Shown here one piece after another: positions 39,369 through 56,190 of a stretch of DNA of 64,000 bases. The stretch comes from Chitinophaga pinensis DSM 2588 (lineage in GTDB: Bacteria > Bacteroidota > Bacteroidia > Chitinophagales > Chitinophagaceae), in assembly GCF_000024005.1 (NCBI RefSeq), contig NC_013132.1, positions 8,550,001 to 8,614,000 on the forward strand. The letters are read 5' to 3'. A model generated the notes under the pieces. It was not told the origin of the DNA and ran no database searches. It saw only the letters and a list, made by a program, of their open reading frames with translations. The stretch's first letter is position 1. Each line of letters opens with the position of its first letter. The position numbers and the translations under genes were made by a program.

Positions 39369-40961
39369 ATGAAAGAATTTGCCACACTCATCAGAATATT
39401 GAGCAACAGCACCAAGACGAATGAGAAACTGGATGCCCTCAGTAAGTACATGGCGACTGCCGATGCTGCCGACCGGCTGTGGGTACTGGCGCTCTTTACA
39501 GGTCGCCGGCCGAAACGTACCGTGAATGCAACACAACTCAGTACCTGGTGCTTACAGATGACCGGTTTACCCGCCTGGCTCTATGAAGAGTGTTATCATA
39601 CTGTCGGGGATCTGGCAGAAACCATCGCACTGCTGCTGCCTCCCGGTAAAAGCATTTCCGTGCATCCCCTGCATTACTGGATCGATCAACTGATACAGCT
39701 GGAAAAAGCCGATGAAACGACCAAACAAACCTTCATCCTCAAAGCCTGGGAAGAACTGGATACCAGCGAACGCTTTGTATTCAATAAACTGATTACAGGG
39801 GGCTTCCGTATCGGTGTATCACAGAAGATGATGGTCAATGCCCTGGCAGATACGTATGATATTCCGGCGGCGACCATCTCACATATGATCAGCGGTAACT
39901 GGGATCCACAGAAAACCACTATAGAGGCATTATTAAGCGAAAATATTACCGAAGCCGATGCTTCCAAACCTTTTCCGTTTTACCTCGCCTATGCCCTTGA
40001 AACTGGCCCTGCTGAACTGGGTACGCCGGAACAATGGCAGGCGGAATGGAAATGGGATGGTATCCGCGGACAGATCATCAAGCGTAATGGACAGCTGTTT
40101 GTATGGTCACGCGGAGAAGAACTGATAACGGAGAAGTTCCCTGAATATCAGCCACTCCTGGAACTATTACCTGAAGGTACAGTGCTGGACGGAGAGATCC
40201 TGACTTTCGCAGATGGCTTTCCCTTACCTTTTCAAACCCTGCAGACACGTATCGGCAGGAAGAACGTTACCAAGAAACAATTACAGGAAGCGCCCGTCGC
40301 CTTCCTGAGTTATGACCTGCTGGAATGGGAAGGACAGGATATCCGGACTACCGCCCTCCAGGAACGCCGGGTACTGCTGGAACAACTGGTGGAAAAGATC
40401 AATCATCCTACCCTTCGCCTCTCTCCTGCCATTACCTTTCATGACTGGGAAGAACTGGCGGCATTCCGCTTACAGGCCAGAGAAAAAGGGAGCGAAGGAC
40501 TGATGCTGAAGAAACTGGATTCTGCCTACCAGGTGGGTCGTAAGAGAGGCGACTGGTGGAAATGGAAAATAGATCCGCTGACAATAGACGCTGTCATGAT
40601 ATATGCCCAGAAAGGACACGGCCGGCGGTCGAACTTATACACAGATTATACTTTTGCCGTCCGGGACGGGGAACAGCTGGTGTCGTTTACAAAGGCTTAT
40701 TCCGGCTTGACGGACAAAGAGATCAACGAAGTGGATAACTGGGTAAAACGGAATTCTATTGAGAAGTTTGGTCCGGTGAGGACCGTGAAACCGGAGCTGG
40801 TATTTGAAATCGGTTTTGAGGGCATCGCAGCTTCCAACAGGCATAAATCAGGCGTAGCCCTACGTTTTCCCCGGATATTACGCTGGCGGAAGGATAAACC
40901 GGTAACAGAGATCAACACACTCACTGATTTACAGCAACTACTGCAAATGCACAAACAATAA
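39369..40961 (+). CDS. ATP-dependent DNA ligase of the Lhr-associated repair cluster
   Basis: A 530-residue ligase. Residues 1-200 are the N-terminal DNA-binding domain; the adenylation domain carries motif I AEWKWDGIRG (Lys228), DGEILTF (motif III), SEGLMLKKLDSAYQVGRKRGDWWKWK (motifs IV-V) and a C-terminal OB domain (VEKFGPVRTVKPELVFEIGFEG-like). It seals nicks with ATP. It forms an operon with the exonuclease gene. It would act beside, not instead of, the NAD-dependent ligase, which is not in the window. Confidence 0.93.
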   Translation: MKEFATLIRILSNSTKTNEKLDALSKYMATADAADRLWVLALFTGRRPKRTVNATQLSTWCLQMTGLPAWLYEECYHTVGDLAETIALLLPPGKSISVHPLHYWIDQLIQLEKADETTKQTFILKAWEELDTSERFVFNKLITGGFRIGVSQKMMVNALADTYDIPAATISHMISGNWDPQKTTIEALLSENITEADASKPFPFYLAYALETGPAELGTPEQWQAEWKWDGIRGQIIKRNGQLFVWSRGEELITEKFPEYQPLLELLPEGTVLDGEILTFADGFPLPFQTLQTRIGRKNVTKKQLQEAPVAFLSYDLLEWEGQDIRTTALQERRVLLEQLVEKINHPTLRLSPAITFHDWEELAAFRLQAREKGSEGLMLKKLDSAYQVGRKRGDWWKWKIDPLTIDAVMIYAQKGHGRRSNLYTDYTFAVRDGEQLVSFTKAYSGLTDKEINEVDNWVKRNSIEKFGPVRTVKPELVFEIGFEGIAASNRHKSGVALRFPRILRWRKDKPVTEINTLTDLQQLLQMHKQ

Positions 40962-41042
40962 GAAAAAGGCAGGGATTATTGAATCAAATTAGTATATTGT
41001 ACTTAATATTGCATTCTAATTGGAACATTATTCTATACTGAT

Positions 41043-41546
41043 ATGAACAACCTGGGCAATAACAAAAAAGATAGTGCCACCGACAACATTGCACTGGATG
41101 AAAAGGACATAGCAATTCTGCAATTGCTGGAGGAAGATGCAAAAATGACTATCCGTGACCTGGCAGCAAAGCTGAACCTGAGTGCCACCCCTGTCTATGA
41201 ACGCATTCGTAAAATGGAACAGGCTGGCGTAATCAGGCAATATGCCGCTATCGTTGACCCCAGCAAGATCGATAAAGCCCTTACCGTACTATGTTATATT
41301 TCCCTTAAAGAGCATGGTAAAAAGGCAGGTTCAAAATTCATCAAGGAGATCACTTCTTTCCCGGAAGTAATGGAGTGTCTGAATATCTCCGGTCAGTTCG
41401 ATTTCATGCTCAAAGTGCAGGTAAAAGACATGCTCGCCTACCATGAGTTTAATGTCAACAAGCTAGGCGAGCTGGATAATATCCGTCATATGGAGAGTGT
41501 GTTTGTAATGTCAGTCATCAAAGCAACACACAGAGTGGTATATTAA
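41043..41546 (+). CDS. Lrp/AsnC-family transcriptional regulator
   Basis: A 167-residue regulator. N-terminal winged helix-turn-helix (LDEKDIAILQLLEEDAKMTIRDLAAKLNLSATPVYERIRKME) and a C-terminal RAM ligand-binding domain (VMECLNISGQFDFMLKVQVKDM). Such proteins sense amino acids. No obvious amino-acid operon is adjacent, so the target is unknown. Its stop overlaps that of the convergent next gene by 4 bp. Confidence 0.93.
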   Translation: MNNLGNNKKDSATDNIALDEKDIAILQLLEEDAKMTIRDLAAKLNLSATPVYERIRKMEQAGVIRQYAAIVDPSKIDKALTVLCYISLKEHGKKAGSKFIKEITSFPEVMECLNISGQFDFMLKVQVKDMLAYHEFNVNKLGELDNIRHMESVFVMSVIKATHRVVY

Positions 41547-42136
41547 TTTTGCAATTGTCTGAGGCCTTCATACCCGGGGAAGAGGATATAAGCATTCACA
41601 TTTTCTCCCCTGGGATGTACCGTAATGGCAGAACAGGTTTCTTTTTTGCCTTTCTCTGTCGTCATTTCAAAAGCGATTCCGGAATTACGGACATCATATA
41701 CAGTGATCTTCTTTCCTCTTACCCTGTCTTCATACTGTGCCACTACTTTTATAGCAGGGAATAATTTTTTGATCTCGATATAAGAGCTCCCAACCTTTAA
41801 TCCTTTTGACGTTTTAAAGGAGGCAGTGTTCACGCGTACCTGTTTTACGATCATTGGTCCCATACCGTCCACTTCCTGTCTTACAGAGTAAACAGCCAGG
41901 AATCTGGAGGAGTCTATACTATCATCTTTTTTGCGACTGTACCAGAAGCTCCAGGCTTTCCCCATAGCAGCATCTCCGCCATCAGCATTGCCTAGCTCTT
42001 TGGACATCTCTTCTACTTTTTCACCCAGTTTTGTATTCCCGATATATTCACCGGGCTGGATCTTCCAGGCGTTCTGTGCAAAGGCCGGCGCCGTCATGAG
42101 CATACATGCCAGCGCAAGAAAGTAAAGGTGTTTCAT
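41543..42136 (-). CDS. Secreted protein of unknown function
   Basis: A 197-residue exported protein: signal peptide MKHLYFLALACMLMTAPAFAQ, then a small mixed alpha/beta domain (IQPGEYIGNTKLGEKVEEMSKELG and VGSSYIEIKKLFPAIKVVA), the latter resembling the repeated LGxxxxxVxxxLG units of small Bacteroidota periplasmic proteins. I do not recognise a family. The ATG at 42136 gives the best signal peptide. Confidence 0.75.
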   Translation of the reverse strand: MKHLYFLALACMLMTAPAFAQNAWKIQPGEYIGNTKLGEKVEEMSKELGNADGGDAAMGKAWSFWYSRKKDDSIDSSRFLAVYSVRQEVDGMGPMIVKQVRVNTASFKTSKGLKVGSSYIEIKKLFPAIKVVAQYEDRVRGKKITVYDVRNSGIAFEMTTEKGKKETCSAITVHPRGENVNAYILFPGYEGLRQLQN

Positions 42137-42208
42137 AGTTCTTCTTTTACACAAAGAAAGACAAAAAACAGGCCACTTCCTTATTCAAATAATGCTTACT
42201 TTACTGGT

Positions 42209-43255
42209 ATGAATCGCAAACACTTTCTGTCAGCGCTGGCCACTACTGCGGGCCTTACTACCTTCCCCGCGCTGACACGTTTACAACAGGCCGCTGCAGC
42301 GTTGCCACTACATGAAGAAAGACTGCTGATCCCTCCCTATCTGAAACCGGGTGACCTGATCGGTATTACCTGCCCCGCCGGACATATTACACTGGAAGAA
42401 ATTAAACCAGCCATCCGTATTATGGAAAGCTGGGGATTTAAAATACGTGTAGGTAATACCGTTAATAGAGCTGACTTCAGTTTTGGTGGCACCGATAAGG
42501 AGCGCCAACAGGATATGCAGACCATGCTCGATGATCCATCCATAAAAGCGATCATGTGCGCACGGGGTGGTTATGGCAGCGCACGCATCGTAGACCAGCT
42601 TGACTTTTCTCACTTTATACAACAACCTAAATGGGTGATCGGCTTTAGCGACGTCACCGTATTGCATTGCCATATCAATCGCCTGTATGGCATTGCAACC
42701 TTACATTCTAAAATGTGCAACAGCTTTCCTGACGACTACAATAAAGCCGAACCCATTGTACAACAAACCATCTCTTCTATCAAAGATGCATTGATCGGGC
42801 AACAACTGCACTATACCACTTTCTCTGATTCCCGCAACAGAACAGGTAGCACCAAAGGCATACTGATAGGCGGCAACCTTTCCATGATCCAAAGCGTACT
42901 GGCAACTAACTCTGAACCCGATACTATCGGGAAAATACTATTCCTCGAAGAGGTAGGCGAATACCTCTACAGTCTTGACCGTATGCTTAACAGTCTGCAA
43001 CGCGCGCATAAACTGGATAATCTCGCAGGACTGATCATCGGAGGTTTCAACCGTATCAAACCAGATGATCCGGGAGAGGAATTCGGACGCACCGTATATG
43101 ATATCGTGATGGAGAAAGTCAAGGATACCACCTACCCCGTTTGCTTTGGATTTCCGGTAGGACACCAGAAAGATAATTATGCGCTGAAGTGTGGTATTAT
43201 GCATCAGCTACAGGTGAGTAAAGAGGAAGTGCAGTTGCATGAACTCAGAGGATAA
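42209..43255 (+). CDS. LD-carboxypeptidase (peptidase family S66)
   Basis: A 348-residue enzyme that trims tetrapeptides of peptidoglycan for recycling. The nucleophile is Ser124 in CARGGYGSAR; the Glu in LEEVGEYLYSLDRML and His in FGFPVGHQKDNYAL complete the S66 triad. The N-terminus (MNRKHFLSALATTAGLTTFPAL) looks like an export signal, somewhat Tat-like but without a twin Arg. The start at 42209 is chosen because the 27 codons before it overlap the promoter side of the divergent gene. Confidence 0.92.
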   Translation: MNRKHFLSALATTAGLTTFPALTRLQQAAAALPLHEERLLIPPYLKPGDLIGITCPAGHITLEEIKPAIRIMESWGFKIRVGNTVNRADFSFGGTDKERQQDMQTMLDDPSIKAIMCARGGYGSARIVDQLDFSHFIQQPKWVIGFSDVTVLHCHINRLYGIATLHSKMCNSFPDDYNKAEPIVQQTISSIKDALIGQQLHYTTFSDSRNRTGSTKGILIGGNLSMIQSVLATNSEPDTIGKILFLEEVGEYLYSLDRMLNSLQRAHKLDNLAGLIIGGFNRIKPDDPGEEFGRTVYDIVMEKVKDTTYPVCFGFPVGHQKDNYALKCGIMHQLQVSKEEVQLHELRG

Positions 43256-43315
43256 AGAAGAGGATACCCTGATCGTGCAACACAATTACACAAAATTTTA
43301 TAAACAATAATACCT

Positions 43316-44032
43316 ATGAGAAAGTTGTTAGCTCTTATCTGTTGTGCGTTGATATTATGCGCCTGCAAAAAAGATAAATCCGAACTAATCGTCTCCGGCA
43401 CTTATGAAAGTTCAAACAAAATAGAATTAAGCACCGTAGTGTTGTACAGCAAGAATATGAAGATCACTGACACTGCTTTTATTAAAGCATTCATTGAACG
43501 ACAGAATATGTCATTACCACTTTTTAATTTAACAGGAAGCACCGGTCAGTTAGACTATGGCATTAGCATTAATTACGTGAATGACGACAGTGTTACAGTC
43601 CGTTATTCCGGTAGCCGCAACTACCAGGCTACCAAAAAAGGCACACTGGTCAGCGTGAATGATGATATCGTACTGTTCAGAGAAAAAGATTCCAGTGCTA
43701 TTCAAAATTATACAGGCGGCGAACTGGGATGTAACAATGTGCCACTGCTGGTAAGAAAGTATGCACCCACATCTTATTGCTACACGGTACCTTGTAGCAG
43801 TGGCTTTTGCACCATCTGTAAGACCGCACAACAATTCACATTAGAAAGAGTTGGGAATGATCTGACACTGCCGCTTATTTCCTATGTGTTTACAACAGCT
43901 GTTGACCGCAATGATTGTCAGGTCGCACAGTGGAATATACAGGATATATTTAATCCGGATGTACTGAATACGATACATACGCAGGATACACTGGTAGTGC
44001 AGACAGGTAGAGTGAGGTTTATAAAGAAATAA
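43316..44032 (+). CDS. Predicted lipoprotein, unknown function
   Basis: A 238-residue protein with signal peptide and lipobox LILCAC (Cys17), so it should be membrane-anchored. A cysteine cluster (SYCYTVPCSSGFCTIC) near residue 160 may bind metal or form disulphides. The family is not recognised. Composition becomes more AT-rich here and continues so into the next gap. Confidence 0.72.
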   Translation: MRKLLALICCALILCACKKDKSELIVSGTYESSNKIELSTVVLYSKNMKITDTAFIKAFIERQNMSLPLFNLTGSTGQLDYGISINYVNDDSVTVRYSGSRNYQATKKGTLVSVNDDIVLFREKDSSAIQNYTGGELGCNNVPLLVRKYAPTSYCYTVPCSSGFCTICKTAQQFTLERVGNDLTLPLISYVFTTAVDRNDCQVAQWNIQDIFNPDVLNTIHTQDTLVVQTGRVRFIKK

Positions 44033-44106
44033 CAATGTTGGCTAACATTAATGTAGATAAGACGGCTAAAGTTGGGTATTACGTTGATCCAATTGTTACA
44101 AACTAT

Positions 44107-44460
44107 CTAACAAGATATTCCATCAATATGAAACTTGTCGTGAACGCTCTTGACCAAACTGAGGTTAGGAGCCTTCCGACCACTCAGAATTTCTGAAAAC
44201 TGAGACTTAGATATTTCCAGTTCAATCGCAAGCTATACCTGATTAAAGTAAAGTCATGTAGTCCATGATATGAATCAGTATAGCTTAAAATCAGGCTTGA
44301 TAGGCATAGGGTATTCTTTCATCTCCCATATTTCTGCTGCTTTGGACAACTCATTTAAATGACTATCCTCTTCTCCTGAAAGATTAGAAAGCCCCATTTG
44401 CAAATATGCCTCTATCGCAGTAATCGCCTCATAGTATTGTTGTTTGGTTTCTATTTTCAT
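44107..44460 (-). pseudogene. Decayed HigA-type antitoxin
   Basis: An intact N-terminal part (from MKIETKQQYYEAITAIEAYL at 44460, through YPMPIKPDFKLY) ends in a stop at 44275. Downstream on the same strand the rest can be read in pieces: a +1 segment LIHIMDYMTLL, then after a second shift and a TAG, LAIELEISKSQFSEILSGRK followed by APNLSLVKSVHDKFHIDG, a typical HigA helix-turn-helix, ending at a stop at 44107. At least two frameshifts and a nonsense codon separate the halves. No HigB toxin gene was found beside it. The first half could still be translated as a short protein (71 codons from 44490). Confidence 0.82.
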
Positions 44461-44490
44461 GTGCATATATTGAATAACAAAGTCACCCAT

Positions 44491-44960
44491 TTTTTTTATT
44501 CTTTATTATTATGTTCGCTATACTGTGCATGAGTCGATAGTCTATCTTATATAGAAGTTCTACTTTTAAAAATGAATAATGCTGTAGAAGTTAATCATTA
44601 TCACTCATGTTAAATACATATCTGTCGTTACCAGTAGCACACACAAATTGAATGTTTTTACCAATTCACTAAAACTACTCCTGTATACCTCTTTGTTTTT
44701 TTGTGCCGTCATTCAACAACAGAATAATCAGATGATAATATGCGTCAAATGCATTATCTCGTTCAATGCAATAATAATCATTGTTAATTACACTTAGCAA
44801 ATTGATTGTTATTATGATTGACCTGCCGACAGTTACCCTTTACACCGTCACAAACATAGTAAACGTCGCTTATTGCAAATAAAAATAATTTACAAAAGAG
44901 CACTATTTACATAATTTGAAACCACAGTTTTTCTCCTTTTTTCATTAATTTCATCAACTG
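44491..44960. other. 470-bp AT-rich gap
   Basis: No gene seen on either strand. The place upstream of the higA remnant is where a toxin gene would be expected, but no HigB-like peptide can be read. The promoter of the helicase gene must lie near its end; no clear TAnnTTTG match was found. Confidence 0.5.
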
Positions 44961-47423
44961 ATGAAAAACAAAGCGCGCGGATGGCAGGTGATCATAGAAT
45001 GGCTGGCTGCAAGAGACAGAAAGCCCTTTACATTCCAGGAAGAAGCCTGGAAACATTACATGCAGGGCAAATCAGGCCTTGTCAACGCCCCTACCGGTTA
45101 CGGTAAAACCTTCTCACTTTTCCTGGGTGTTGTAATCGACTGGATCAATAAACATCCGGATGATTACCAAGAGAAAACAAAGAACGGTCTGCAAATGCTG
45201 TGGATCACTCCGCTACGTGCACTGGCAAAAGATATTGCCCGCGCCATGGAGGAAGTACTGCAGGAACTCAATATGCCCTGGCAGGTAGGCATCCGCAGTG
45301 GAGATACGCCCATATCTACCCGGCAGCAGCAAAAGAAGATGATGCCGGAGATCCTGCTTATTACACCGGAAAGTCTGCACCTCCTGATGGGGCAAAAAGA
45401 ATATCCCAAGGTATTTACACACCTGACGACCGTCGTGGCGGATGAATGGCATGAATTGCTGGGCAGCAAACGCGGCGTTATGGTGGAACTGGGTCTCAGC
45501 AGACTCCGTGGACTGGCGAAAAAGGCAGGTCGTCCGCCACTGAAGGTATGGGGTATATCTGCAACGATTGGCAACCTGGATGAAGCGCTGGATGTACTGC
45601 TCGGTCAGCCGGATCCGGAAGCTGTCATTATACGCGCCAAACTGGATAAGAAGATCGAACTACAGAGCATCTTACCCGATGAAATTGAGAAATTCCCTTG
45701 GGCAGGTCACTTAGGCACCAAGCTGCTGTATAAAGCGCTGCCGGTGATCATGAACAGCAAAACGACACTTATATTCACCAATGTCCGTTCCCAGACGGAG
45801 ATCTGGTACCAGGAAATTTTAAGGCAATGCCCCGAACTGGCAGGCGCTATTGCGATTCACCATGGTTCCATTGATATGGAACTACGTGTGTGGGTGGAAG
45901 AAGCGCTGCATACCGGCGTACTGAAAGCGGTGGTGTGTACCTCCAGCCTTGACCTGGGCGTAGACTTCCGTCCGGTAGATACCGTTATCCAGGTCGGCAG
46001 TCCGAAAGGAGTTGCCCGTTTCCTCCAACGCGCAGGCCGAAGCGGTCACCAGCCAGGAGCTACCAGTAAAATATGGTTCCTTCCCACCCACAGTCTTGAA
46101 CTGGTAGAAGCCGCAGCACTGAAAGCTGCCATGGAAGAACAGCTGGTGGAAAGCCGTATACCCATCGTGCTTGCTTACGACGTATTGTTGCAATACCTGA
46201 TGACATTAGGCATTTCTGATGGCTTCCATGCAACTGAAATATGGGAGGAAATTACCAACACCTTTTGCTTCCGCGATGTAACAGAAGATGAATGGGCCTG
46301 GATGCTGGCATTTCTAAGCACCGGCGGAGATGCACTTTACAGCTACGATGAATTCAAAAAGCTGGAAAGAGAAGGCGACTTTTTCATCTGTCGCAGCCGT
46401 ATGCTGGCGATGCGCCACCGACTGCATATCGGTACGATTGTAAGCGACGCCATGCTGAAAGTAAAATTTATGAGCGGCGGTTTCATCGGCATGATAGAAG
46501 AATGGTTTGTTGCCCGTCTGCAGCCCGGAGATGCCTTCAGTCTGGGCGGACGCACACTGGAATTTGCCATGATCAAAGACATGACGGTACTGGTGCGTAA
46601 ATCCAATGCCAAACGTGCCATTGTACCCAGCTGGATGGGAGGACGTTTACCCCTTTCTGCCAATCTGGGTAAAATGCTGCGCCGCACTTATAACGAAGCA
46701 TTATCCGGCAAATCAGATATGCCGGAGATCAAAATATTACAGCCCTTATTCGACTTACAGGAACGGCTTTCTCACATACCCAAGGACAATGAACTGCTGA
46801 TCGAAATGATCACTACCCGTGATGGTTATCACATGTTTGTCTATCCTTTTGAAGGGCGACTGGTACACGAAGTAATGGCGGCACTGCTGGCTTACCGTAT
46901 CAGTAAACGGCAGCCGATCACTTTCTCCATGGCCATGAATGACTATGGTTTTGAATTGCTGTCAGATCAGCCGATTCCGGTAAGTGAAGGAGATGTACAC
47001 GATCTTTTCTCTCTGGAAAATCTGACTATTGATCTACAGGCCAGTGTCAACTCAACAGAGATGGCCCGCAGGAAATTCAGGGATATAGCAGTTATCGCAG
47101 GACTGATCTTCCAGGGGTATCCCGGCAAACATAAAGCCAGCCGGCACCTGCAATCATCAGCCTCATTACTGTTCAATGTATTCAAGGATTATGATCCGCA
47201 GAACCTGTTGTTACGACAGGCATTCAATGAAGCCTTTTTCTATCAGATGGAAGAAGCCAGGTTACGGGAAAGCCTGGACCGTATTTACAACAGCAATATC
47301 ATCATTACGGAACCTGAAAGCCTGACACCTTTCTGTTTCCCGATAAAAGTAGATAGTTTAAGGGAAAACCTGACCAGCGAAAAACTGGAGGACAGAATCA
47401 AAAAAATGCGTCCGCAGTTTTAG
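44961..47423 (+). CDS. Ligase-associated DEXH-box helicase (Lhr-core-like)
   Basis: An 820-residue superfamily 2 helicase. Walker A APTGYGKT (43-50), ITPLRALAKD (Ia), ITPESLH, motif II DEWH (161-164), SATIG (III), and in RecA domain 2 TNVRSQTE, TSSLDLGVDF and QRAGRSGHQPG. A winged-helix and the Lhr-core C-terminal region follow. It lacks the long extra C-terminal domain of full Lhr. It is the helicase of the exonuclease/ligase/phosphoesterase repair set, here 4 kb away from the ligase and exonuclease genes, and is followed by pdeM after 32 bp. Confidence 0.94.
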   Translation: MKNKARGWQVIIEWLAARDRKPFTFQEEAWKHYMQGKSGLVNAPTGYGKTFSLFLGVVIDWINKHPDDYQEKTKNGLQMLWITPLRALAKDIARAMEEVLQELNMPWQVGIRSGDTPISTRQQQKKMMPEILLITPESLHLLMGQKEYPKVFTHLTTVVADEWHELLGSKRGVMVELGLSRLRGLAKKAGRPPLKVWGISATIGNLDEALDVLLGQPDPEAVIIRAKLDKKIELQSILPDEIEKFPWAGHLGTKLLYKALPVIMNSKTTLIFTNVRSQTEIWYQEILRQCPELAGAIAIHHGSIDMELRVWVEEALHTGVLKAVVCTSSLDLGVDFRPVDTVIQVGSPKGVARFLQRAGRSGHQPGATSKIWFLPTHSLELVEAAALKAAMEEQLVESRIPIVLAYDVLLQYLMTLGISDGFHATEIWEEITNTFCFRDVTEDEWAWMLAFLSTGGDALYSYDEFKKLEREGDFFICRSRMLAMRHRLHIGTIVSDAMLKVKFMSGGFIGMIEEWFVARLQPGDAFSLGGRTLEFAMIKDMTVLVRKSNAKRAIVPSWMGGRLPLSANLGKMLRRTYNEALSGKSDMPEIKILQPLFDLQERLSHIPKDNELLIEMITTRDGYHMFVYPFEGRLVHEVMAALLAYRISKRQPITFSMAMNDYGFELLSDQPIPVSEGDVHDLFSLENLTIDLQASVNSTEMARRKFRDIAVIAGLIFQGYPGKHKASRHLQSSASLLFNVFKDYDPQNLLLRQAFNEAFFYQMEEARLRESLDRIYNSNIIITEPESLTPFCFPIKVDSLRENLTSEKLEDRIKKMRPQF

Positions 47424-47455
47424 TTTAACAGGGATAATGTAGTTTTACCGAAGAT

Positions 47456-48103
47456 ATGGAGGATGTGATTTACAGGTACCAGGACCAGACCTGGCATTTA
47501 TCGCCACACAGGGCTATTTTCTGGCAGGAAGAACAGGCGTTGATCGTATCAGATCTGCACCTGGGCAAAGGCACACATTTCAGGAAAGCAGGAATCGCCG
47601 TTCCTGCCAATATCGGGCAGAATGACCTGTACCGGCTGCAACTACTGATCACTGCTTACAATCCTTCACAGATCATCATTGTAGGCGATATGTTTCACAG
47701 TCGTGAGAACAATGACGTCGCTTATTTCAGACTCTGGCGACAACAGTTTGCCAATATCTCTTTCAAACTGGTAAAAGGTAATCACGATATATTACCTGAT
47801 GCAATATACGCCACTTTGAATCTTGAAGTGTTTGATACACTCTGCATCCGCGACATACATTTCGTACATGAGCCCTGCGAAGAGGGAGATGCGCCAGGAT
47901 ACACCTTTTCCGGTCACCTGCACCCGAGTGTAGTAGTCGCCGGCGCTGGCAGACAACGACTACGTCTGCCCTGCTTCTACTTCGGAAAACATTGCAGCAT
48001 ATTGCCTGCTTTTGGCCGTTTTACGGGCCTCGCTACCTTAGAACCTGCACTGGATGAGGCAGTATTTGTTATTGCTGAAAACAGCGTCTTAAAAGTCAAT
48101 TAA
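47456..48103 (+). CDS. pdeM: Ligase-associated DNA damage response phosphoesterase PdeM
   Basis: A 215-residue calcineurin-like metallophosphoesterase. The metal motifs are SDLHLGKG (Asp33, His35), VGDMFHSREN, VKGNHDI and FSGHLHPS. In characterised clusters this protein is a manganese-dependent nuclease/phosphodiesterase acting with the Lhr-core helicase. Its stop shares a base with the ATG of the next gene (TAATG). Confidence 0.93.
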   Translation: MEDVIYRYQDQTWHLSPHRAIFWQEEQALIVSDLHLGKGTHFRKAGIAVPANIGQNDLYRLQLLITAYNPSQIIIVGDMFHSRENNDVAYFRLWRQQFANISFKLVKGNHDILPDAIYATLNLEVFDTLCIRDIHFVHEPCEEGDAPGYTFSGHLHPSVVVAGAGRQRLRLPCFYFGKHCSILPAFGRFTGLATLEPALDEAVFVIAENSVLKVN

Positions 48104-50467: not shown

Positions 50468-50500
50468 CTAAATAATTTAGTACATTACTAACAAAATTAG
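50468..50500. promoter_or_regulatory. Paired CTAA-N5-TTAG operators on the S24 regulator promoter
   Basis: CTAAATAATTTAG (50468-50480) and CTAACAAAATTAG (50488-50500) start 20 bp apart, two helical turns. On the minus strand the second site contains the -7 box TAATTTTG (50492-50499), so occupation would block transcription: autorepression. Confidence 0.78.
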
Positions 50501-50545
50501 CATATAATTTTTATAATTACCAAATATATTCCGGTCAGCTTAACT

Positions 50546-50553
50546 TATTTTTG
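50546..50553 (+). promoter_or_regulatory. -7 box of the membrane protein gene
   Basis: TATTTTTG matches TAnnTTTG, 36 bp before the ATG at 50590. It does not overlap the CTAA/TTAG sites. Confidence 0.5.
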
Positions 50554-50589
50554 CCCCGTAAAATCGTAAAATCCAACTCAATATTTATT

Positions 50590-51048
50590 ATGGACACCTT
50601 GGTAACTATTCACTCCCTGTTAAGATGGGCAATTGTGCTGACCGGTATATGGGCAATTATCCGCGCAATCAGAGGCGTTAGTGGCAACTCAGCTTACACC
50701 GCCGCTGATAAAAAAGCAGGCCTTTTCTTTATGATCTCTCTCGATATTCAGTTACTCGTAGGGATCGTACTGTATTTCATCAGCCCAATGGCGATGAAAG
50801 CATTTCAGTCTATGGGTGGAGAAGTAATGCGCCAGGCGCCATACCGCTACTTCGCTGTAGAACACGCCTTCGCTGCTATCATCGCGATTGCACTGGTACA
50901 CATCGGCCGTTCTAAAGTAAAGAAAGCAGGTTCCGATGCTCAGCGACATAAACTGTCCCTGATATTCTTTCTGCTTGCACTGGTAATACTGGCTGCACGC
51001 GTTCCATGGCCATGGACGGCAATGGGTGCTGGCAGAGGATGGTTCTAA
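50590..51048 (+). CDS. Small four-helix membrane protein
   Basis: A 152-residue inner-membrane protein with four hydrophobic segments (about 8-28, 43-63, 85-103, 115-135) and several intramembrane-edge histidines (IHSLLRW, VEHAFAA, LVHIGR), a layout seen in heme-b-binding or cytochrome b561-like small proteins. Not identified further. The ATG at 50590 is used; upstream codons lie in the promoter. Divergent from the S24 regulator. Confidence 0.75.
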   Translation: MDTLVTIHSLLRWAIVLTGIWAIIRAIRGVSGNSAYTAADKKAGLFFMISLDIQLLVGIVLYFISPMAMKAFQSMGGEVMRQAPYRYFAVEHAFAAIIAIALVHIGRSKVKKAGSDAQRHKLSLIFFLLALVILAARVPWPWTAMGAGRGWF

Positions 51049-51067
51049 TCTGAAAGCAATACAAAAC

Positions 51068-51117
51068 ATAAAAGCAGAAGCCGCCTCCAACTATCAGGAG
51101 GCGGCTTCTGCTTTTAT
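51068..51117. terminator. Strong bidirectional terminator
   Basis: A 21-bp perfect stem (51068-51088 with 51097-51117), 8-base loop, GC-rich core CCGCCTCC and T/A runs on both sides. It serves the membrane protein gene and the convergent SdpI-like gene. Confidence 0.9.
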
Positions 51118-51137
51118 TTGTAGACCACTTTTTGCTG

Positions 51138-51815
51138 CTATCCTTTGTCCGTGTAAAAAAGACGATATGAATAAATATAAGGCAAGGCCGCCAGTATCCC
51201 CCCGATAAAAATCAACAGGAAAGTACCCGTTACCACCGGCAGGAAGAATCCAGCTATAATGGTCGCCGCACCTGTACATACCCACAGCGTACCCGCAAAT
51301 GCATGCGTTTCCCGCCATATTTCTTCGCTTTTTAATGTCCAGGGTGTTCTTACCCCGACAAAGTAGTTAGGCTCCACCTTGCGCAGGAAAAGGCCGATTA
51401 CGCCGATCAGCAGTCCCGTTCCCGTAAATACCCAACGCTCTATCACAAAAGGATGTCCCTGGCTGGCCATAAAGATAATGGCAGCCGTAAAGATCGCCAG
51501 ATAGATGTGGATCATAAACCGGATCTGATAGTACTTTCGCTGAAATAACGTCATTTCCTGTTGATGGATCTCCGCCTCGTCTTCCACGTGCGGAATGTAC
51601 CTGAACAAAAAGTATAACAATAGATTAGTGAGGAATAAAAAGGTCATCAGTAAAAGAAAGTCCCCCTTGCTGCCAACACGGTCTGCCACTCCATTTACAC
51701 TGAAGTTAGTCGGCATAATGCTCGGTAGGGAAGGCCAGATGATTCCCAGATAAACCATCGGCAGCACCAATAATAACAATAACAGCAGTTCCTGGCCAAT
51801 ATCAGGCTTTTTCAT
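51138..51815 (-). CDS. SdpI-family membrane protein (DUF1648 + SdpI)
   Basis: A 225-residue protein with about six membrane helices. The N-terminal DUF1648 segment (LPSIMPTNFSVNGVADRVGSK) is followed by the SdpI signature (EPNYFVGVRTPWTLKSEEIWRETHAFAG). SdpI of B. subtilis is the immunity/signal protein of the SdpC toxin; most other members have unknown function. No toxin gene is visible. Start at 51815 (MKKPDIGQELL). Confidence 0.85.
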   Translation of the reverse strand: MKKPDIGQELLLLLLLVLPMVYLGIIWPSLPSIMPTNFSVNGVADRVGSKGDFLLLMTFLFLTNLLLYFLFRYIPHVEDEAEIHQQEMTLFQRKYYQIRFMIHIYLAIFTAAIIFMASQGHPFVIERWVFTGTGLLIGVIGLFLRKVEPNYFVGVRTPWTLKSEEIWRETHAFAGTLWVCTGAATIIAGFFLPVVTGTFLLIFIGGILAALPYIYSYRLFYTDKG

Positions 51816-51924
51816 GAGAAAGTGTTTTGTTTGAAAGTATCGTGACAAATAGCGTACCCGCTTGTGGCACTCATATAGTTAATAACCATTATCCCCGCCA
51901 ATTTGTTATTAATTGTTAATCCTG

Positions 51925-51964
51925 CTAATAAAATTAGTATCAACTAAATTTATTAGTAAATTTG
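51925..51964 (+). promoter_or_regulatory. Paired CTAA-N5-TTAG operators and -7 box of dinB
   Basis: CTAATAAAATTAG (51925-51937) and CTAAATTTATTAG (51944-51956) start 19 bp apart; the second directly abuts the -7 box TAAATTTG (51957-51964). The layout matches the pair on the S24 regulator promoter and fits repression of the translesion operon. Confidence 0.78.
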
Positions 51965-52016: not shown

Positions 52017-53231
52017 ATGATTTCTTTGCAACACAGGTCCATCGCTCATTTCGACATGGATAGCTTCTTCGTATCAGTGGAATGCAGGGACGATAACAGC
52101 CTGAAAGGAAAACCACTGCTTGTCGGCGGTATGAGTGACCGGGGCGTTGTAGCTGCCTGCAGTTACGAAGCCCGCCGCTATGGGATTCATTCGGCCATGC
52201 CCATGAAGGTTGCACTTAAATTGTGCCCGCACGCCATCGTCAGAAGAGGCGACGTGGAAAAATACAGCCAGATCTCCCGTGAAGTAACCGGACTCATAGC
52301 TGATAAAGCCCCCCTCTACGAGAAATCATCCATAGATGAATTCTATCTCGACCTCACCGGTATGGACAAATTCTTCGGTTCTATGAAATGGACCACCGAA
52401 CTACGCCAGTATATTATGCGGGAAACACAACTGCCGGTTTCCTTCGGGCTCGCCTCCAACAAAATGATCTCTAAAGTGGCTACCAACGAGGCTAAACCCA
52501 ATGGTCAGCTGGAAATACTCTTTGGCAATGAAAAATCTTTCCTCGCTCCTATGCCGGTGGAAAAACTCCCCATGGTGGGTAAGGAAACAGCCAGCCAGCT
52601 GCGCCGTCGCGGAGTAGAAACCGTAAAAACCCTGAGCGAAATACCGCTCTCCCTGCTGGAAGCCTGGCTGGGGAAGAATGGTATCTCCCTCTGGAACAAA
52701 GCCAATGGTATTGACGAGTCTCCCGTTGTGCCCTACCATGAACAAAAGTCTATCTCTACCGAAAACACCTTCCATACCGACACCATCGATATGCAGTTCA
52801 TACATGCGGAACTCGTGCGTATGACGGAAAAAATCGCCTTCGAACTCAGACAACAGGATAAACTCACCGGTTGTGTCACCGTCAAAATCCGCTATTCTGA
52901 TTTTGAAACCGTAACAAAACAGATGACCATACCCTATTCCAGCAGCGATCATGTGCTATTGGAAAAGGTAAAAGAACTATTTACTAAACTATATGACAGA
53001 AGACTCCTTATCCGTCTGATAGGGGTACGCTTCAGTCACCTGGTACATGGTAACCATCAGATCAGCCTCTTTGATGATACACAGGAAATGATCTCCCTTT
53101 ACCAGGCCATAGACAATATAAAAAACCGCTTCGGATGGCAATACCTGATGCGGGGTACCAACGCCGCTCCCCAGTCAAAAAAAGGGGACATAAAACAGCG
53201 GGATATCATGCCGTATCCAAAAGTGAGATAA
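52017..53231 (+). CDS. dinB: Y-family DNA polymerase IV (DinB)
   Basis: A 404-residue translesion polymerase. The catalytic acidic residues are Asp13 in HFDMDSFF and Asp107-Glu108 in SSIDEFYLD. Steric-gate region, thumb (PMVGKETASQLRRRGV) and little-finger domain are present; QISLFDD (348-354) is a beta-clamp-binding motif. It starts an operon with a DnaE2-like polymerase after 10 bp, and its promoter carries the S24-type operators. Damage-inducible mutagenic synthesis is the likely role. Confidence 0.94.
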   Translation: MISLQHRSIAHFDMDSFFVSVECRDDNSLKGKPLLVGGMSDRGVVAACSYEARRYGIHSAMPMKVALKLCPHAIVRRGDVEKYSQISREVTGLIADKAPLYEKSSIDEFYLDLTGMDKFFGSMKWTTELRQYIMRETQLPVSFGLASNKMISKVATNEAKPNGQLEILFGNEKSFLAPMPVEKLPMVGKETASQLRRRGVETVKTLSEIPLSLLEAWLGKNGISLWNKANGIDESPVVPYHEQKSISTENTFHTDTIDMQFIHAELVRMTEKIAFELRQQDKLTGCVTVKIRYSDFETVTKQMTIPYSSSDHVLLEKVKELFTKLYDRRLLIRLIGVRFSHLVHGNHQISLFDDTQEMISLYQAIDNIKNRFGWQYLMRGTNAAPQSKKGDIKQRDIMPYPKVR

Positions 53232-53241
53232 ACCAACGCTT

Positions 53242-56190
53242 ATGTATCTGAATTGCAAAACTTTCTTCAGCCTCCGTTACGGCACCATCGATACAAAAGA
53301 ACTGGTGAAAACAGCACGGCAGATGGGCATCACCTCACTGGCGCTCACTAATATCAATATCACTTCAGATACCTGGAACTTTGTGAAGGAATGCCAGGAT
53401 AATGGGATCAAACCCATTATCGGACTGGAATGCAGAAACAATCACGACCTTAAATACATCCTGCTGGCCCGTAATATGGAAGGTTGGTTTTATATCAACA
53501 GATTTCTGTCAGATCATCTGCATAAAGACCTCCCCTTTCCTGATCGCGCACCCGCTTTCCCGGGCGTATTTGCTATCTATACCTGGAATACCGTTCCGCT
53601 CCAGGATCTCTACGAACATGAACTCGTCGGCATCCGCAAGCGGGATATCAACAAACTATTCCGGGTAGATACCTTATGCTGTCAGGATAAACTCGTCATC
53701 CTTCACCCTGTTACTTTTCAGAATGCAGACTACTATCACCTCCATCGCATCCTACGCGCTGTCGATCAGAATATCCTGATCAGCCAGTTGCAGGATCATA
53801 CGGCCGCACATACAGATGAAATGTTCATATCGCCCGGCGACTTATTCGACAGCTTTGAACAATATCCGCATATTATCAGCAATACAGTGCGTGTCATGGA
53901 CGCCTGTCAGATCAGCTTCGACTTTAAATCTCCGCGTAATAAAAAGTACTTCACCACCAGCGAAGCAGAAGACCATGCACTCCTGCGGAAACTCGCATAT
54001 GAAGGCATGCTCGAACGTTACGGACCGGATAACACAGAAGCAAAAGAGCGTATAGAAAAAGAACTGGATGTAGTACAAGGCCAGCATTTCAATGGTTATT
54101 TTCTCATTACCTGGGATATCATCCGTTATGCACAGGAACGTGGATTCTTCTATGTAGGCCGGGGTAGCGGCGCTAATTCCATCATCGCATATTGCCTGAA
54201 AATAACTGACGTCGATCCCATAGAACTGAATCTTTATTTTGAAAGATTCCTCAATCCTTATCGTAGCTCTCCGCCTGATTTTGACATTGATTTCTCCTGG
54301 AAAGACAGAGATGAAATCATTGCATATGTATTCAAAAAATATGGCACTGCACATACTGCGCTTTTAGGCACCGTCACTACATTCCAGCAGAATGCCACGA
54401 TACGTGAACTAGGTAAGGTATACGGTTTGCCCAAGCAGGAAATAGATAAGATCCTGGATACACCATTTAATCCTGATCTCTCCGGCGATAGCGTACAGCA
54501 GAAAATCCTGCGCTATAGTCAGCTGATGTCCAATGATAACAAAGCTTTCCCTAATCACCTCAGCATTCATGCCGGAGGTATACTTATCAGTGAAGCGCCT
54601 ATTCATCAGCATTGCAGCACCTATCTTCCACCTAAAGGATTCAGCACCGCACAACTGGACATGCACCAGGCAGAAGCCATCGGGTTATTTAAATTCGATA
54701 TTCTGAGTCAGCGGGGTCTCGGACATATACGTGATGCCATCAGCATTATCCGGGAAAACAAAGGTGATGATATCGATATCCACAATGTAAAAGCATTCAT
54801 GCGCGATGAACGTGTTAAACATGCCCTACAGACTGTTAATACCATCGGCTGTTTCTATATCGAATCGCCTGCTATGCGGCAGCTACTCCTGAAACTTGAA
54901 TGCCATGATTATCTGACACTGGTAGCTGCCAGTTCAGTCATACGTCCCGGCGTAGCGCAATCAGGTATGATGCGGCAATATGTGCATAACTACCGTCATC
55001 AGGACCAGGTTGTTTATCTCCATGAGATCGTGAAAGAAGTATTGAGTGAAACCTTCGGCATCATGGTCTACCAGGAAGATGTAATTAAGATTGTCAGCAG
55101 GTATGCAAATATGGACCTGGCAGATGCAGACATCTTACGCAGGGCGATGGCTGGTAAATACCGTGGTCAGGGAGATTTTCAGAAAATAGAACAACAATTT
55201 TTCAATAACTGTAAAAAACTCGGCCGACCAGATGCTGTCACAGCAGAGCTCTGGCGACAGATCGCCAGCTTTTCCGGTTTCTCTTTTTCAAAAGCACACT
55301 CTGCGAGTTTTGCGGTGGAGAGCTATCAGAGCCTGTACCTGAAAACATATTATCCGGCAGAGTTCATGGTTGCAGTGATTAATAACTTCGGCGGCTTTTA
55401 TAACAGGGAACTGTATTTCCGGGAGCTACAGAAGACCGGTGTGACCATTAAACCGCCCTGTATCAATAACAGCGATTATTACACGCGTATAAACGACGAC
55501 ATTGTATATACAGGTTTTATTCATGTCGAAGGACTGGAAGTAAAGTGGATGGAACGGGTATTGGAAGAACGCGGTCAATATGGCCCTTATGCCAGTCTGG
55601 AAGACTTCGCTACCCGCATAGCACCTCCGCCGGAACAACTGGATATTCTCATCAGAATAGGCGCCTTTAGCTTCGATACTTATACAAAGAAAGAATTACT
55701 GTGGAAAAGCAGCCTGTTATTGAAAGCGAAGTCGCCGCATGCCGAGCATATACAGCCCTTATTCCGCGAGGAATTACCAGACTGTCAGTTACCCATGCTG
55801 GCCTATACGGCACATGAAAATGCCTTTGAAGAAATTGCACTGCTGGGATTTCCATTGTGCTCTCCTTTCACCATTCTGCAACATGATCAAAGCAGGTATA
55901 TTACTGCGAATAATTTCAGGCAGTACACCGGACAAACGATCAATGCACTGGGTTATCTCGTCTGTACCAAAGGGATCCATACCAGCAAAGGTATTCCTAT
56001 GAGTTTCGGAACCTTTATGGACGCAAACGGAGACTTTATCGATACCGTACATTTCCCGGATATCCTGCGCAAATACCCCTTCCAGAAAGGCGGATTTTAC
56101 ATGTTACAGGGAAAGGTTACAGAAGAATATGGGGTGTTCTCTATAGAGATCGGCTATATGCGGAAGATCGGTTACTTTGAAGACAAATAA
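53242..56190 (+). CDS. DnaE2-like error-prone DNA polymerase III alpha subunit
   Basis: A 982-residue C-family polymerase, shorter than replicative DnaE (about 1160). The palm has GRGSGANSIIAYCLKITDVDP and PPDFDIDF (Asp348 and Asp350), and the fingers region SKAHSASFAVESYQSLYLKTYYPAEF is intact. The N-terminal PHP domain is degenerate: the usual YxxLHxHS is NCKTFFS and ALTDH is ALTNI, so the metal-dependent activity is lost. The C-terminal tau-binding part of DnaE is missing. It is the last gene of dinB-dnaE2. In other bacteria DnaE2 works with ImuA/ImuB; no imuA is in the window and dinB takes the place of imuB. Confidence 0.9.
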   Translation: MYLNCKTFFSLRYGTIDTKELVKTARQMGITSLALTNINITSDTWNFVKECQDNGIKPIIGLECRNNHDLKYILLARNMEGWFYINRFLSDHLHKDLPFPDRAPAFPGVFAIYTWNTVPLQDLYEHELVGIRKRDINKLFRVDTLCCQDKLVILHPVTFQNADYYHLHRILRAVDQNILISQLQDHTAAHTDEMFISPGDLFDSFEQYPHIISNTVRVMDACQISFDFKSPRNKKYFTTSEAEDHALLRKLAYEGMLERYGPDNTEAKERIEKELDVVQGQHFNGYFLITWDIIRYAQERGFFYVGRGSGANSIIAYCLKITDVDPIELNLYFERFLNPYRSSPPDFDIDFSWKDRDEIIAYVFKKYGTAHTALLGTVTTFQQNATIRELGKVYGLPKQEIDKILDTPFNPDLSGDSVQQKILRYSQLMSNDNKAFPNHLSIHAGGILISEAPIHQHCSTYLPPKGFSTAQLDMHQAEAIGLFKFDILSQRGLGHIRDAISIIRENKGDDIDIHNVKAFMRDERVKHALQTVNTIGCFYIESPAMRQLLLKLECHDYLTLVAASSVIRPGVAQSGMMRQYVHNYRHQDQVVYLHEIVKEVLSETFGIMVYQEDVIKIVSRYANMDLADADILRRAMAGKYRGQGDFQKIEQQFFNNCKKLGRPDAVTAELWRQIASFSGFSFSKAHSASFAVESYQSLYLKTYYPAEFMVAVINNFGGFYNRELYFRELQKTGVTIKPPCINNSDYYTRINDDIVYTGFIHVEGLEVKWMERVLEERGQYGPYASLEDFATRIAPPPEQLDILIRIGAFSFDTYTKKELLWKSSLLLKAKSPHAEHIQPLFREELPDCQLPMLAYTAHENAFEEIALLGFPLCSPFTILQHDQSRYITANNFRQYTGQTINALGYLVCTKGIHTSKGIPMSFGTFMDANGDFIDTVHFPDILRKYPFQKGGFYMLQGKVTEEYGVFSIEIGYMRKIGYFEDK

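Follow-up and report, generated by a model that had tools for sequence, protein, structure and literature searches.

A 64-kb window of the Chitinophaga pinensis chromosome, the whole stretch of DNA analysed here, holds a gene for a helix-turn-helix (HTH) S24-peptidase regulator and a dinB operon whose promoters each carry two copies of the inverted repeat CTAA-N5-TTAG. This raises the question of whether the two promoters form an SOS-type switch, and to what wider system it might belong. The preliminary description had proposed a compact two-promoter switch built on an operator for which it knew of no description in Bacteroidota. The core of this proposal is borne out: conservation and regulon content strongly support the window protein as a predicted self-cleaving LexA-like repressor, with autorepression and control of a translesion operon. 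The word compact has to be dropped, as the two promoters are part of a genome-wide SOS regulon that includes recA, uvrA, radC, imuA and others, and the operator is the motif published for the non-canonical LexA proteins (PMC8565304).

All four exact matches to CTAA-N5-TTAG in the window lie in the promoters of the S24 gene and dinB, exactly where they had first been reported (Table 1). This count of four compares with 0.96 expected, and was reached or exceeded in 1 of 100 shuffles; two sites in one promoter were found in none of 20,000 dinucleotide shuffles, for the S24-gene and the dinB promoter each. Following the promoter consensus, we presume TAnnTTTG and TTTG to be the -7 and -33 boxes. 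One site in each promoter does overlap or abut a TAnnTTTG box as described earlier, the S24-gene site containing TAATTTTG and the dinB site abutting TAAATTTG.

Table 1. Features of the regulator and dinB region, in window coordinates.
Feature	Position	Strand	Remarks
Predicted non-canonical LexA of Bacteroidota (S24 gene), HTH_3 + S24 peptidase, 250 aa	49712..50464	minus	Pfam
Operator CTAAATAATTTAG	50468..50480	no strand	directly ahead of S24-gene start codon; exact motif match
Operator CTAACAAAATTAG	50488..50500	no strand	holds presumed -7 box of S24 gene; exact motif match
Presumed -7 box TAATTTTG of S24 gene	50492..50499	minus	read from sequence
Presumed -33 box TTTG of S24 gene	50524-50521	minus	21 bp upstream of presumed -7 box
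Protein of 165-aa ORF, divergent from S24 gene	50590..51048	plus	matches in 50/80 loci (best 80 of 142)
SdpI/DUF1648 family protein, divergent from dinB	51138..51848	minus	Pfam SdpI 1.3e-21; matches in 50/80 loci (best 80 of 142)
Operator CTAATAAAATTAG	51925..51937	no strand	upstream of dinB; exact motif match
Operator CTAAATTTATTAG	51944..51956	no strand	upstream of dinB, abuts presumed -7 box; exact motif match
Presumed -7 box TAAATTTG of dinB-dnaE	51957..51964	plus	read from sequence
dinB, Y-family	52017..53231	plus	Pfam IMS 2e-46; catalytic motifs HFDMDSFF, SIDE
dnaE-like C-family polymerase, 982 aa	53242..56190	plus	Pfam DNA_pol3_alpha 1.3e-67

Pfam matched the regulator to HTH_3 (PF01381, 1.6e-13) and Peptidase_S24 (PF00717, 6.5e-10), whereas the winged HTH of LexA (PF01726), the mark of a canonical LexA, was absent from its matches at E ≤ 0.001. 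The Ser136/Lys175 dyad and Ala99-Gly100 bond that had been picked out as suited to self-cleavage were confirmed, and when the window protein was aligned with the best 80 of 142 relatives Ala99, Gly100 and Ser136 were present in 81 of 81 sequences and Lys175 in 80 of 81; the sole exception (L095) falls within a stretch that looks frameshifted. Sequence comparison with solved structures gave short HTH matches only. The AlphaFold2 model, a modest one (pLDDT 71, pTM 0.42), places a helix at residues 227-249; in the published family an extra C-terminal helix, missing from LexA and CI, has been described (PMC8565304). A search of the 9.13 Mb genome for the S24 family returned, besides the window protein, one protein of 111 aa that is too short to hold an HTH domain as well, making the window protein the sole HTH-S24 candidate in the genome.

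The system is already described. Sanchez-Osuna et al. (Nucleic Acids Res. 2021, PMC8565304), applying motif discovery to the regions ahead of UmuD and DinB/UmuC genes, obtained CTAA-N5-TTAG as one of two motifs, and defined the non-canonical LexA of Bacteroidetes as a protein with a CI-type HTH, an S24 domain and conserved Ala-Gly and Ser-Lys residues. The Pontibacter actiniarum protein bound CTAA-N5-TTAG in gel shifts, binding being abolished by an altered dyad or spacer length, and mitomycin C induced the regulator gene together with predicted SOS genes. Chitinophagaceae are listed there among the families with large CTAA regulons, several promoters with two or more sites are noted, and a phage origin is proposed for the family. 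The Chitinophaga system shares with it the domains, the cleavage residues, the motif with its 5-bp spacer and autoregulation, as well as multi-site promoters and occurrence in Chitinophagaceae; regulon genes common to both are dinB, recA, imuA-imuB-dnaE2, radC, topoisomerase IV and the UDG-linked gene pair. No difference of kind was found against the parts of PMC8565304 used here, and the assignment of the HTH-S24 gene as the Chitinophaga member of this family, made from sequence, is strongly supported. Some differences of detail appear: those parts of the paper place the dinB + polymerase III alpha operon under its other motif, GGA-N5-TCC, whereas here it stands under CTAA-N5-TTAG; uvrA, which has a single site here, is unnamed in them; and they give no spacing for paired sites (supplementary tables aside), which was measured here.

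Across the genome, single copies of the motif are not informative by number. There are 63 CTAA-N5-TTAG sites, compared with 153 for a reversed control pattern, which means no enrichment of the motif taken singly. Close pairs behave differently, with five in the genome, none for the reversed pattern, and about 0.006 expected by density. The five close pairs precede lexA (the S24 gene), dinB-dnaE, imuA-imuB-dnaE2 and two radical SAM genes, one of the PA0069 family and the other UDG-linked; at a distance of 91-112 bp, the imuA pair precedes a divergent AraC-type gene too. A single site lies ahead of each of the following: recA, uvrA, dinB2-dnaE, a gyrB/parE-like gene, a SNF2-associated-domain gene and a 2OG-Fe(II) oxygenase gene (presumably AlkB-like). 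At radC a single site overlaps the start as called. Further sites precede genes without a known repair link (malate:quinone oxidoreductase, MarR and AraC regulators, GH16 and others), many of the 63 fall within called ORFs, and seven sit in an AATTCCT-type heptamer tract, with 17-23 of 30 period-7 matches. A lone site is therefore weak evidence, and single genome sites were not counted as operators by themselves. The heptamer tract (loci L134, L136, L138, L142, L164, L172 and L177) has CTAATTGAATTAG at its end and mimics the operator.

Genes around the genome sites were called by a simple longest-ORF script, and their start positions are thus approximate. Pfam was run on 30 neighbouring proteins, a subset of the neighbouring ORFs, and NCBIfam on seven of these 30 (from L137, L139, L157, L158 and L168, with imuA and dinB2 under the L188 and L189 coordinates) and additionally on imuB, the imu DnaE and the DnaE of the second dinB operon. 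The first gene product of the imu operon, of 244 aa, matched nothing in either Pfam or NCBIfam and was named ImuA from named homologues.

Scanning a genome collection for relatives yielded 142, and the best 80 of these served as orthologous loci for assessing conservation; they are mostly Chitinophaga, then Segetibacter, Sediminibacterium and broadly named MAGs. Every one of these best 80 of 142 carries exactly two sites within 350 bp ahead of the S24 start, including L100, whose sequence reaches just 38 bp upstream. The start-to-start spacing (n = 80) was 20 bp in 34 loci, 21 in two, 22 in 10, 23 in 23 and 24 in 11. Among the same best 80 of 142 loci there are 39 distinct operator regions, in which spacers and linkers drift while every operator arm matches the exact pattern. 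A dinB match was present in 47 of the 80 (best 80 of 142), and in 46 of these 47 two sites precede it, the exception (L091) having one; here the starts are 18 bp (31 loci) or 19 bp (15 loci) apart. A lack of conservation upstream of the S24 and dinB orthologues had been named in advance as grounds for abandoning the proposal, and the opposite is seen at both promoters. Two Chitinophaga-type loci without dinB (L059, L062) have a second close pair, of 19 bp spacing, some 1.5-1.7 kb from lexA; another locus without dinB (L067) is also without a second pair.

The presumed promoter boxes are less constant than the operators. At 50 of the best 80 of 142 loci TAnnTTTG begins within site 1 of the S24 promoter, and an exact TAnnTTTG lies immediately 3' of site 2 in 28 of the 46 paired dinB promoters among them. 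In loci outside Chitinophaga the exact box is mostly absent and TAAATTGC-like linkers separate the two sites, so that any -7 element located between them would be a putative one.

In each of 36 genus genomes there are three to six close pairs (gaps of 2-14 bp), 158 in all, with none for the reversed control; when the gap is 15-45 bp, these genomes contain 17 pairs, with six for the control. Outside the genus a close pair was found in four of 23 genomes, and the reversed control gave two, both in one outside genome (G037). At 30 pair loci, one per genome, the start spacing was always 18-23 bp, the pattern permitting 15-27. An imuA match was found in 42 of 60 genus genomes; at the 30 imuA loci examined at least one site was present in all 30, two sites in 17 and one exact site in 13, the paired starts being 21 bp (15 loci) or 23 bp (two loci) apart. 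At class level a homologue of the regulator at E ≤ 1e-20 was present in 174 of 247 genomes. Sites were checked in the 29 best-scoring of these loci besides our own: at least one lay within 300 bp upstream in 21, and eight had no exact site in that interval. Only three of the 29 had a close pair, with spacings of 23, 23 and 17 bp; three of the 29 are same-family genomes, two with a pair and one (L198) with a single site. Given this low number beside all 36 genus genomes, the close pair looks like a trait of Chitinophaga and near relatives and not of the whole repressor family. Across the class the close pair is not general. A wider pair, with starts 55-56 bp apart, recurs in 23 of 60 Chitinophaga genomes, mostly with TATTTTTGCA beside one site.

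Taken together, we consider it highly probable that a non-canonical LexA of the published type represses lexA, dinB-dnaE and other SOS genes, and that damage-triggered self-cleavage releases them. A regulator dimer would bind each CTAA-N5-TTAG palindrome, as others found for the Pontibacter protein, and two dimers, spaced by roughly two turns of the helix and sitting over and next to the -7 box, would exclude RNA polymerase. On DNA damage a RecA filament would form and promote cleavage at Ala99-Gly100 by Ser136/Lys175, as the conserved residues suggest, and cleavage should lift repression from lexA, dinB-dnaE and the rest of the SOS genes together.

Other readings of these sites were weighed against this model. 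As HTH_3 and S24 are the domains of phage repressors, and the proposal in PMC8565304 of a phage origin for the family points the same way, the S24 protein might be a CI-type repressor of a prophage and the sites its phage operators. We regard this as very unlikely and reject it: the two neighbouring membrane-type genes have matches at 50 of the best 80 of 142 loci, and dinB at 47, the homologues extend over 174 of 247 class genomes, phage-like genes were absent among the neighbours examined, and the sites are dispersed over chromosomal repair genes. The sites could also be chance palindromes in AT-rich intergenic DNA, given their AT-rich spacers and flanks, the seven of 63 in the heptamer repeat and the unenriched pattern (63 against 153 reversed), but to this we give almost no credence. 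The dinucleotide shuffles of either promoter (0 of 20,000 with two sites), the close pairs in the own genome (five against none reversed, about 0.006 expected) and the two sites at every one of the best 80 of 142 loci, which have 39 distinct operator regions among them, led us to reject it.

A third proposal refines the LexA-type model and does not compete with it: the close double operator would act as a cooperative unit, in which dimers touch as those of lambda CI do, giving a sharper switch, with promoter-specific spacing tuning its strength. It is favoured by the spacings, 20-24 bp at lexA (n = 80, best 80 of 142), 18-19 at dinB (n = 46) and 21 or 23 at imuA (n = 17), by the confinement of the 30 pair loci to 18-23 bp of the 15-27 permitted, and by the excess in the 36 genus genomes of pairs at short gaps (158) over those at 15-45 bp (17). 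On the other hand, 18-24 bp is a wide range for strict helical phasing and one class-level pair is at 17 bp, the positions of the -7 box and the start codon may equally well fix the spacing at each promoter, and only a single exact site is present at 13 of the 30 imuA loci. We hold cooperativity to be possible, at somewhat less than an even chance. The LexA of E. coli has a different DNA-binding domain and motif from the Chitinophaga regulator. Its lexA promoter is likewise autorepressed through a double LexA operator, for which, in the parts of PMC7440846 used here, cooperativity is not evidenced and the role is termed unclear. In Chitinophaga, unlike that promoter taken by itself, the dinB, imuA and two radical SAM promoters are double too.

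The regulated polymerases are of more than one type. In the window, dinB and dnaE are separated by 10 bp and the operon is without imuA and imuB, while imuA-imuB-dnaE2 lies at 4.14 Mb. Against PRK05672 (error-prone DnaE, cut-off 939 bits) the window DnaE scored 484, the DnaE of the second dinB operon 467 and the imu-operon DnaE 1385. The name dnaE2 used in the preliminary description accordingly fails in the ImuC sense, the score being below the cut-off and imuA/imuB absent from the operon, and holds in the wider DnaE2B sense. Timinskas and Venclovas (2019, PMC6511836) describe for Bacteroidetes a Y-family + DnaE2 pair (PolY2-DnaE2) of two apparently active polymerases. The window Y-family polymerase has the motifs HFDMDSFF, SIDE and PDFDIDF with DnaE downstream, the arrangement of an active PolY2-DnaE2B operon, and from operon and phylum the window DnaE is right as a DnaE2 only in this wider sense, tied to an active Y-family polymerase. 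A DnaE2B-PolY-RecA module of Bacteroidetes has also been described (NAR 2026, PMC12926913); the coexistence of ImuABC and PolY-DnaE types in C. pinensis runs contrary to a general statement in the parts of that paper used here.

Three translesion operons bearing CTAA sites are present in the one genome: imuA-imuB-dnaE2 (4.14 Mb, L188), dinB2-dnaE (3.99 Mb, L189) and the window operon (52017-56190). The DnaE proteins of the two dinB-dnaE operons are 55% identical. Of 60 genus genomes, 59 have a dinB of the type seen in the window or of the dinB2 type (at least 52% identity), the exception (G073) having only a short 68% dinB fragment; with ImuA in 42 of 60, 41 genus genomes hold both, as counted from ImuA and dinB. 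A fourth Y-family polymerase, of the Pol IV type, lies at 8.96 Mb (L191) directly downstream of a gene that we take to be cryptochrome/photolyase-like, and the genome-wide list has no exact CTAA site near it.

With the best 80 of 142 loci and one whole genome, the Bacteroidota SOS model of 2021 fits Chitinophaga, and our addition is a modest one: the double-operator layout, with starts 18-24 bp apart, persists in Chitinophaga and its closest relatives even as the linkers change. We tentatively suggest, with more doubt than confidence, that these close double operators, their spacing set per promoter (lexA 20-24, dinB 18-19, imuA 21/23), make repressor contact or two-sided occlusion of the -7 box part of the switch, that the repressor would be the second one known from SOS systems to need two operators at its own promoter, its DNA-binding domain being unrelated, and that one lexA would preside over three parallel translesion operons of the ImuABC and PolY-DnaE2B types. 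So strictly kept a double operator offers a natural test case for the purpose of the second lexA operator, the point termed unclear for E. coli in the parts of PMC7440846 used here.

Near lexA the window also holds ligase-associated DNA damage response genes (39369-48103; ATP-dependent ligase, DEXH helicase and PdeM), none of which has its own exact CTAA site. Between lexA and dinB lie the SdpI-family protein (51138-51848) and a family-less protein (50590-51048), with zero matches in Pfam or NCBIfam; the latter, judged by eye from its sequence, is a probable membrane protein.
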